This document shows positions 443 through 19,029 of a stretch of DNA of 19,115 nt, piece by piece. Position 1 is the first letter of the stretch. Each line of letters starts with the position of its first letter. Under the pieces are notes generated by a model. That model did not search any database, was not told the origin of the DNA, and worked only from the letters and a program-made list of their open reading frames with translations. Origin of the DNA: an uncultured Hippea sp. (GTDB taxonomy: Bacteria > Campylobacterota_A > Desulfurellia > JAADFJ01); assembly GCA_913009315.1 (NCBI GenBank), contig CAJVZA010000036.1, positions 1 through 19,115 of the forward strand, read 5' to 3'. Position numbers and translations under genes: made by a program.

Positions 443-471
443 TTGACAAGTTGTGAACTTAATCATATAAT
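443..471 (+). promoter_or_regulatory. Full-consensus sigma70 promoter for the pilin gene
   Basis: TTGACA at 443-448 and TATAAT at 466-471 both match the housekeeping consensus exactly, with the ideal 17-bp spacer. Transcription would start near 478, leaving a leader of about 140 nt before the pilin ATG at 617. The leader contains a 10-bp palindrome TGTGTACACA at 533-542. Pilin genes are often sigma54-dependent, and I see no -24/-12 element here. A perfect -35/-10 pair suggests strong basal transcription unless it is repressed. Confidence 0.8.
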
Positions 472-616
472 TATATTTAGTATTAGAATTTGATAGATGC
501 GAGATACTGAAACAGACTAAGGAAAATATTTGTGTGTACACATTGGAGATGATTCTGATAAGTGCAGAGCATTTTACAAAACGATTGTCGAAGAAGAGTA
601 AAAAAGGAGATCTTTT

Positions 617-844
617 ATGAACAAATTTGTTGTAAAATTTAGAGAAAGCCGCAACGGCCAAAAAGGTTTTACCCTTATCGAGCTTCTCGTTGTTATTGCA
701 ATTATTGCAGTTCTAGCCGCAATTGCAATTCCGCAGTATGCAAAATACAGACGGAGTGCATTCAATGCGGCGGCATTAAGCGATCTGAAGAACGTTCAGA
801 TGATTGCGGAAGCATATTATGCAGATAAACAAGTTTATCCATAG
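617..844 (+). CDS. pilA: Short type IV pilin (PilA-N / geopilin-like)
   Basis: Encodes a 75-aa prepilin, the structural subunit of a type IV pilus or pseudopilus. A 17-residue basic leader ends in Gly17, followed by the PilD processing site and N-methylated Phe: mature FTLIELLVV with Glu at +5, then a long hydrophobic helix. ATG 617 is set by AAGGAG at 604-609. The mature chain is only 58 residues. That matches the short Geobacter PilA-N form (about 61 residues), not ordinary pilins of 120-160 residues with a C-terminal globular domain. Aromatics fall at mature positions 1, 24, 27, 32, 50, 51 and 57. The gene stands alone between a consensus promoter and a terminator, and no PilA-C partner is visible. 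After the TAG stop the same frame stays open to a second TAG at 959-961 (114 codons in all), so truncation of a longer pilin is the alternative. Confidence 0.8.
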
Positions 845-1020
845 AATCGGAAAGAAAAGTATATTAAACATATTGAAGGTGGGGCTTTAACAGAATTTAA
901 TGAAGCAGCAGCACCAATAGTTGCTGCTGCTGAGACGCCAAATTGCTGTCAAGTCAAGTAGATAAACTGAAATTAGATTTTAATTTTTGGCATTTACATT
1001 TATATGATAGTAAACAAAAC

Positions 1021-1058
1021 CGGTAGGTTTCAACCGCTTGCCGATTTTTCTCTTTTTT
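1021..1058 (+). terminator. Rho-independent terminator of the pilin transcript
   Basis: The outer arms CGGTA (1021-1025) and TGCCG (1039-1043) pair with one G-U, and the inner GGTT/AACC arms form a nested stem. The hairpin is followed by a long T-rich run (ATTTTTCTCTTTTTT). It closes the monocistronic pilin unit and lies beyond the second in-frame stop at 961. Confidence 0.7.
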
Positions 1059-1461: not shown

Positions 1462-2223
1462 ATGAAAAACAAGGTTGTACTGATAACCGGGGCAAGCAGC
1501 GGAATCGGCAGGGCGTCAGTGAGAAAATTTGCTAAAAATGGTGCCGATATCATTGCAGCTGCAAGACGAATAGCGTGTTTGAATCAATTGAGTGATGAAG
1601 TAAGTGAGCAGTTTGGAGTCGATGTTCTTCCGATAAAACTTGATGTTACTGATAAAAATGCCGTTGACAAGCTTGGTAATCTTCCGGAACGATTTAAAAA
1701 TATAGATGTGCTAATAAACAATGCAGGCGGAGCATTAGGTCTGGAACCGTTATGGAAGGGCAGTTTATCGGATTGGGATCAGATGATCGATACAAACATC
1801 AAAGGTCTGTTGTATGTTACGAGAGCTGTACTGCCGATAATGATTGAACGTAAAACCGGAATCATAATCAATATCGCATCGATAGCGGGATTGGAAGCTT
1901 ATCCGGGTGGAAATGTGTATTGTGCCGTAAAGAGCGCCGTTAGAATGCTGTCTAAATCGTTGAGGATGGATCTTGTTAAGACAGGTGTAAGAGTATCGAC
2001 AATTGATCCAGGCATGGTTAAAACAGAGTTTAGTAAAGTACGTTTTCATGGCGATTCTGTTCGCGCAGATAAGGTTTATGAAAAAATAACGCCCCTATCT
2101 GCAGAAGATGTTGCCGATGCAATCTATTTTTGCGCAACAAGACCTAAGCATGTCGATATAGAGGAATTGGTTATAATGCCTACAGCTCAGGCATCCGTTT
2201 TAATTAATGACCGAAAGGATTAG
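1462..2223 (+). CDS. ydfG: YdfG-type short-chain dehydrogenase/reductase
   Basis: A 253-aa classical SDR, probably an NADP-dependent 3-hydroxy acid dehydrogenase acting on small hydroxy or semialdehyde acids, as E. coli YdfG does on malonic semialdehyde and L-allo-threonine. Visible motifs are the Rossmann TGASSGIG at residues 9-16, an Arg pair at 35-36 that suits NADP, NNAG at 86-89, the catalytic Ser140, Tyr153 and Lys157 (YCAVK), and DPGMVKTEFS at 182-191. The stretch ALGLEP, the MIDTNIKGLLY segment and the PGGNVY segment resemble YdfG much more than fatty-acid or sugar SDRs. ATG 1462 is chosen because GGAAGGAG (1448-1455) lies just upstream; a GTG at 1378 would add 28 residues before the fold. 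It stands alone and is convergent with aconitase. The family is sure; the substrate is inferred. Confidence 0.9.
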   Translation: MKNKVVLITGASSGIGRASVRKFAKNGADIIAAARRIACLNQLSDEVSEQFGVDVLPIKLDVTDKNAVDKLGNLPERFKNIDVLINNAGGALGLEPLWKGSLSDWDQMIDTNIKGLLYVTRAVLPIMIERKTGIIINIASIAGLEAYPGGNVYCAVKSAVRMLSKSLRMDLVKTGVRVSTIDPGMVKTEFSKVRFHGDSVRADKVYEKITPLSAEDVADAIYFCATRPKHVDIEELVIMPTAQASVLINDRKD

Positions 2224-17617: not shown

Positions 17618-17646
17618 TTGACATTTTTCGTACTGTAGTGTATATT
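17618..17646 (+). promoter_or_regulatory. Transposase promoter with overlapping operator dyad
   Basis: TTGACA (17618-17623), a 17-bp spacer and TATATT (17641-17646) form a near-perfect sigma70 promoter. The -10 is embedded in the perfect dyad TAGTGTATA-TTT-TATACACTA (17636-17656). The predicted start (about 17653) is a few bases before the ATG at 17656 and no ribosome-binding site exists, so the mRNA would be leaderless or nearly so. Confidence 0.75.
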
Positions 17647-17655
17647 TTATACACT

Positions 17656-19029
17656 ATGGCATTCATTAGAAAGATTAAAAAGAAAAATGCTGTTTATCTC
17701 GCTGAAGTTGAAAGTTATCGGGAAAATGGCAAAGTTAAACAAAAGGTCCTGCGTTATATCGGCAAAGAAGTAAATGGAGAAGTTGTCAGAAAGATTGCTA
17801 CTTCCGATATCGAAGTTGAAACCGTGAAACAATATCTGGATTATAAAACTCTGCATGATCTTGCCGGTCAGCTTGAAATGACAGAATTATTCGGAGATGC
17901 ATCTAAATATATTTTATTGCTGGTTTATACTCAAATTATTGCAAGAAAATCTCTTTACAAACTCCCTGAACATATAGAAAACACTGTATTGAAAGAACTG
18001 CTGTCTATTGATAAATTGGCAGACAAACATCTGTATGAAGCATTGGATAAGTTGGAAGAGATGGATTTCAGTGTTATTGAGCAGAGACTTTTTAAAAAGT
18101 TAAGTGCAGGAAAACAAGAAAAGACAGCCCTTGTTTTAGACATAACAGATACATACTTTTCCGGCAGTCAGGCAGAATGGAAATCAAGAAAAGGAAAAGA
18201 TGGCAAATACGGCAAATTAATTCAGATAGCTCTTGCAGTGACCAAAGAAGAAGGATTTCCTATACTGCATAATGTCTATGAAGGCAATGTAAGTGATATA
18301 AAGATATTCCAGGATATGATTACAAGTGTTAGATTACAGGATTTTGATGTAATAGTTTTAGACAGAGGTATGATCAGTTATGAAAGTCTAAATGATTTGA
18401 CGATGTTAGGACAGAAAGTAATAACCGGATTAAGGCTCAATAGAAAACTAAAAGCAGAATACTTAGATAGGATAGACAGGAATGACATTTTTAATCCTGC
18501 TAATCTTGTACCTTTAAAAAATACAAAAGTTTTCATAAAATCTTTTCAATTCAAAGACGGTACATTAATAGTAGTCTATAACCCATCAATAGAGATATCT
18601 AAAAGAATGGGTGCAATAAATAAAGATAAATTTGATATTAAAAAAGCTAAATATTATGGTTATTCGCTGATATATCATACTACTGATATGTTAGATGAAA
18701 ATGTTGTCAGAGAATATTATGAAAAAGATATAGTAGAAAAAGCATTTAAAGAACTAAAAAGTTCAATAAATCTTCATCCGGTAAGAAAGTATCTGTTAAC
18801 AAGAGTAAAAGCACATATAAAAATATGCTATTTAGCATATGTATTGCTATCATCTTTACAATACAAACTGAAACCCAGGAACATATCGGCTGTATATGCA
18901 TTGGAGAAATTACAACCTGCATATAAAGTTGAGTTAAAATCAAACAAAGAACATTTTAAATGGTCAAAAATTGTTACTTTAACAAATGAGCAGAAAACTA
19001 TTTTGAAACTATTAGGATGTAGTGTATAA
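17656..19029 (+). CDS. IS1634-like family DDE transposase
   Basis: A 457-aa transposase that cuts and joins the element's ends. N-terminal residues 1-45 (AFIRKIKKKNAVYLAEVESYR, then VLRYIGKE) are the typical IS1634-type DNA-binding opening. The catalytic triad is Asp162 (LDITDTY), Asp236 (VIVLDRGMISYESL) and Glu361 in the IS4 signature, where Tyr354, Lys357, Glu361 and Lys368 keep the Y-2-R-3-E-6-K spacing with Arg replaced by Lys. The length is normal and there is no frameshift. ATG 17656 is preferred over an in-frame GTG at 17638 because the promoter's -10 lies between them; there is no Shine-Dalgarno sequence. The final codons (CSV and stop) are made from the right terminal repeat. Confidence 0.93.
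   Translation: MAFIRKIKKKNAVYLAEVESYRENGKVKQKVLRYIGKEVNGEVVRKIATSDIEVETVKQYLDYKTLHDLAGQLEMTELFGDASKYILLLVYTQIIARKSLYKLPEHIENTVLKELLSIDKLADKHLYEALDKLEEMDFSVIEQRLFKKLSAGKQEKTALVLDITDTYFSGSQAEWKSRKGKDGKYGKLIQIALAVTKEEGFPILHNVYEGNVSDIKIFQDMITSVRLQDFDVIVLDRGMISYESLNDLTMLGQKVITGLRLNRKLKAEYLDRIDRNDIFNPANLVPLKNTKVFIKSFQFKDGTLIVVYNPSIEISKRMGAINKDKFDIKKAKYYGYSLIYHTTDMLDENVVREYYEKDIVEKAFKELKSSINLHPVRKYLLTRVKAHIKICYLAYVLLSSLQYKLKPRNISAVYALEKLQPAYKVELKSNKEHFKWSKIVTLTNEQKTILKLLGCSV

Follow-up and report, generated by a model that had tools for sequence, protein, structure and literature searches.

A PilA-N-type short pilin gene lacking an adjacent pilA-C, from an uncultured genus in the Hippea/Desulfurella class

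The window, by which we mean the whole analysed stretch of 19,115 nucleotides, is contig C36 of a 1.74-Mb genome assembly (G000) that consists of 96 contigs and is 88% complete; this genome was examined by searches and sampled stretches. Close to its start, the window carries a gene for a short prepilin of the PilA-N type, which is preceded by a promoter and a long leader and followed by the region that bears pilA-C in relatives (Table 1).

Table 1. Features of the short pilin locus and its surroundings in the window.
Feature	Position	Strand	Remark
Sigma-70 type promoter, TTGACA-17-TATAAT	443..471	+	12/12 consensus match
Long 5' leader	472..616	+	Conserved among paralogues (alignment)
Ribosome-binding site, GGAG	606..609	+	Sequence inspection
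PilA-N type short prepilin	617..844	+	75 aa, stop codon TAG
Mature part of the pilin	668-841	+	58 aa, after cleavage between G17 and F18
Region where relatives bear pilA-C	845..1020	+	No PilA-C-like frame; its start left as a faint trace at best
Terminator-like hairpin with T-run	1021..1053	+	Hairpin itself at 1021-1043
SDR-family oxidoreductase	1462..2223	+	Synteny anchor common to the two orphan pilins of the sister genome

The product of the gene contains the prepilin signal G/FTLIE and an N-terminal methylation motif. In Pfam it matched N_methyl (PF07963) only (E 2e-11), and in NCBIfam the general N-terminal prepilin domain TIGR02532 scored above its cut-off, with all full-length pilin and pseudopilin models of that collection below their own cut-offs. 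The best three PDB matches were geopilin domain 1 structures (9egp, E 4e-22; 7tgg, 6e-20; 2m7g, 3e-17), which bears out the geopilin-like identity proposed in a first-pass annotation of this DNA, and the identity to orthologues and paralogues from the genus was 71-87%. The Pfam, PDB and genus-homologue matches put the coding reality of the frame far above chance. Its sequence marks the gene as a real, conserved member of the Geobacter PilA-N (geopilin domain 1) group of short type IV pilins, from an uncultured relative of Hippea, a sulfur-reducing bacterium.

The mature protein has aromatic residues at F1, Y24, Y27, F32, Y50, Y51 and Y57, and when the open reading frame was checked every one of these positions, as well as the mature length, proved to be as first described. 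Thus, all six aromatic positions of PilA-N (1, 24, 27, 32, 51 and 57) are filled, with Tyr50 as an extra one, and the mature length is near the 60 residues or so typical of such pilins, with an end after the helix at ..YP that is kept in the genus and the class. The PilA-N of Geobacter sulfurreducens (GSU1496, geopilin domain 1; PDB 2m7g, 6vk9, 7tgg) is likewise a single-helix protein of 58-61 residues in its mature form, and shares with the window pilin the six aromatics, the class III signal and the lack of a globular head. In contrast to it, the window pilin has the additional Tyr50, ends at P58 and has no pilA-C next to it. Relatives of the Hippea type bear the same kind of pilin: the PilA-N proteins of Hippea maritima/Desulfurellia relatives (G008, G009, G016, G017, G023) are of the same class, 64-75% identical and have the same end point, but at position 32, which is Phe in the window pilin, most of them have Gln and that of G008 has Tyr. 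The common aromatic spacing goes back to the shared descent of PilA-N; it does not count as separate evidence for electron transfer, nor is aromatic content by itself a measure of conductivity.

Beyond the TAG the frame remains open for 38 codons (845-958; open to 961), as if a long pilin had been cut by a recent nonsense mutation or a sequencing error and these codons were its old C-terminus. The relatives give no support for translation through the TAG. Every copy from the genus (G001 has three, G002 one) ends with ..VYP and a stop, the stop codon being shared by 5/5 genus copies, and the class copies from other families end within a few residues of the end of the window pilin. Long homologues that continue in frame, which had been named beforehand as what would speak against a short pilin, were looked for, and the closest homologues turned out to be short. 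Since the genus and class relatives terminate at the same place, the predicted stop is genuine. Moreover, the 38 residues matched no family in Pfam or NCBIfam and had no similarity to PilA-C at the protein level, which rules them out as a PilA-C remnant, and the origin of the gene from a long pilin is scarcely credible. In the same stretch, 3' of the pilin stop, positions 903-932 hold a near-perfect inverted repeat, AGCAGCAGCACCAATAGTTGCTGCTGCT, which is not repeated elsewhere in the genus.

The expression signals assigned in the first pass were confirmed in part. The promoter agrees with the consensus at every position, and its TTGACA element is kept 154-174 nt upstream of the ATG in 5/5 genus paralogues; the ribosome-binding site is also present, ahead of the ATG. 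An Rfam search of the leader between them gave no convincing match and its consensus fold was weak (-4 kcal/mol), and a riboswitch in the leader was set aside on these grounds. As to the terminator, a hairpin with a T-run does exist, but it lies 177 nt past the stop, and the number of such sites in the region is about what chance would give (one, against a shuffle mean of 0.8). This hairpin weakly resembles the one 3' of pilA-C in the sister genome.

In seven genomes of the class, a gene for a protein of 107-121 residues with a signal peptide lies directly 3' of the short pilin gene. The profile of these downstream proteins matched PilA-C, also called geopilin domain 2 (9egp_B, E 1.6e-16; 7tgg, 8e-5; 6vk9, 0.005), and the geopilin pair is thereby found in the Hippea/Desulfurella class as well. 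Outside the class, a gene for a small secreted protein was found downstream of all five true short pilins whose loci were fetched; four of these proteins matched the PilA-C profile, at E 2e-8 to 5e-4, and the fifth did so weakly, at E 0.04, so that 11 of the 12 downstream proteins, seven from the class and five from outside it, were matched. The pilA-N family is otherwise paired with PilA-C. In the Hippea maritima/Desulfurellia relatives, pilA-C follows within tens of bases of pilA-N, and the short pilin FHQ18_03575 of Deferribacter autotrophicus, which has 57 mature residues and is aromatic-rich like the window pilin, is clustered with pilA-C (PMC6896113), unlike the window pilin. Likewise, PDB 9egp, the pilin of which is the best PDB match of the window pilin and the partner chain of which is the best match of the class PilA-C profile, is a two-protein system, whereas the window locus provides one protein.

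A search with the PilA-C profile around the window locus found no pilA-C gene, and the score for a pilA-C relic at 845..1020 was weak. PilA-C, a search for which the first-pass annotation had called for, was found in the seven class genomes but not in that of the window, where the profile gave nothing at E<=1 in the 88% complete assembly. Given this completeness, and as the contig carrying mutS2 in the window genome runs into insertion sequences and then ends, an unassembled pilA-C or an intact pair may lie elsewhere in the genome. Of the 'independent short pilin' first proposed, the part that stands is that pilA-C is missing at the locus; the independence itself does not sit well with a family that is otherwise paired. 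The pilin family is a known one, and what is unusual is the local loss of the partner gene.

The syntenic locus of the sister genome, G001, has the same neighbours as the window (SDR, aconitase, hflK/hflC and glyQ/glyS) and holds two tandem pilA-N copies, both without pilA-C. Downstream of the second copy, a relic of pilA-C persists in the form of its first bases (score 17; the shuffles averaged -4.4, and 0/2000 of them reached that score). The first copy (C39a; L121, G001 C39), which lies near a contig end, has drifted inside the conserved helix. One intact pilA-N/pilA-C pair is present in G001, beside mutS2. In the window genome, an insertion sequence may interrupt the pilA on the mutS2 side, with the caveat that the matching 140 bp are partly repeat sequence. 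We consider that the window pilin is probably a duplicated PilA-N that acts as a major pilin and receives PilA-C in trans, the gene for the latter lying outside the assembly.

The comparison of the window pilin with its syntenic orthologue revealed 12 synonymous and 7 non-synonymous differences (dN/dS 0.14). Under a neutral split, 7 or fewer non-synonymous changes would be expected with a binomial p of 1.6e-4, which argues for purifying selection on at least part of the branch. As pilA-C may have been lost more than once, part of this selection may have preceded the loss.

The local loss of pilA-C could also mark a redundant, silent or decaying paralogue: after duplication of the pair, pilA-C would have been the first to go, with the pilin now following it. 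The tandem copies with drifted residues (C39a) in G001, where an intact pair is kept elsewhere, agree with such a course, and these copies, together with the pseudogenes and insertion sequences nearby, count against an active major pilin. However, the reading frame, stop, helix, promoter and ribosome-binding site are all intact in the window, dN/dS against the orthologue is low, and this is the sole major pilin gene found in the window assembly. We regard decay as unlikely, although it deserves to be taken seriously.

The proteins required for a type IVa pilus, PilB, PilC, PilD, PilQ and PilT, are all encoded in the window genome, including the three (PilB, PilC and PilD) that had been proposed as a check. 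The pilB, pilT and pilC genes form a single cluster, and there is a second pilT-like gene, one prepilin peptidase gene (pilD), pilQ together with pilP, pilO and a part of pilN, and, on contig C29, a cluster of minor pilins resembling FimT/PilV/PilW; where a pil name goes beyond the families searched, it was assigned by gene order and length. Among the 12 N-methyl sequences of the genome, the window gene is the only candidate for a major type IVa pilin. The genome also contains two T2SS-like operons, each with its own pseudopilins, and GspG has the same N-terminal motif as the window pilin, as it would if the latter were a pseudopilin of a type II secretion system. Yet both operons have a GspG of their own, these proteins match the window pilin only at E 1e-4 to 1e-7, and its best structural relatives are geopilins, which makes a type II pseudopilin highly improbable. 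The standard T2SS is on contig C16. The second T2SS-like operon, on contig C6 (L118), comprises a secretin lipoprotein, E, F, G and minor pseudopilins, and adjoins a polysaccharide-type ABC transporter.

We infer that the window pilin is expressed and assembled into a pilus. According to the reading that we favour, a duplicated PilA-N with its partner in trans, a pilA-N/pilA-C operon would have been duplicated within the uncultured genus, a member of the Hippea/Desulfurella class, and the local pilA-C would later have decayed. PilD would cleave the prepilin at G/F and methylate it, PilC and PilB would build a thin type IVa pilus, passing through PilQ, by polymerising the 58-residue helix, and PilT would retract this pilus, which may serve attachment, motility or extracellular electron transfer. 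The missing beta-rich outer domain would be contributed in trans by PilA-C, the canonical locus of which would lie outside the assembly. Such a contribution is expected by analogy with the PilA-N/PilA-C pilus of Geobacter, in which the two proteins are present in equal parts (PMC12954529) and in which GSU1497 was reported to be essential to stabilise PilA (PMC5174107).

Both the equal proportion of the two proteins and the dependence of PilA on GSU1497 in Geobacter speak against a natural PilA-N-only type IV pilus, possibly conductive, that would be kept by selection without PilA-C, as does the prospect that PilA-C sits in an assembly gap. Even though an orphan pilA-N under constraint, Geobacter-type aromatics and multiheme cytochromes in the genome are what such a pilus would lead one to expect, we find it very unlikely. 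A PilA-N-only filament, if true, would be what the e-pilus hypothesis postulates; to our knowledge, no such filament has been found in Geobacter by cryo-EM. The locus offers a natural case of a pilA-N that is separated from pilA-C yet apparently still under selection, and whether PilA-N can do without an adjacent partner bears on the debate about pilin-based nanowires.

A search for multiheme cytochromes, also suggested in the first pass, found clear ones in the window genome. On contig C5 (L170:4096-11211), cytochromes with 8, 5, 6 and 8 CxxCH motifs surround a haem-free protein of 406 residues, which had no family match, and the cluster looks like a porin-cytochrome conduit. A truncated cytochrome of the paired-CxxCH type, with at least nine CxxCH motifs, lies at the end of contig C7 (L171:5031-6485). 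The class relatives tested also have an excess of the CxxCH pattern, so that this excess does not single out the window species; the Cytochrome_C7 family, by comparison, turned up solely in G001, the window genome and a single further relative. Owing to these cytochromes, electron transfer is possible in the window organism, though nothing in the pilin by itself speaks for such a role.

Dispersed short repeats (e.g. CATTGCGAGCGAAGCGCGGCAATCTC) occupy positions 100-400 and 1054-1111 of the window and occur in many copies in the window and sister genomes. The stretch at 1054-1111 was at first taken for the flanking sequence 3' of a duplicated cassette, a reading dropped because it is such a many-copy repeat, and a second pilA locus on contig C75, pointed to by dispersed repeat matches, was ruled out, as there is no pilin there. 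Near the other end of the contig, at 17638-19029, the window carries a gene for a transposase of the IS1634 family.
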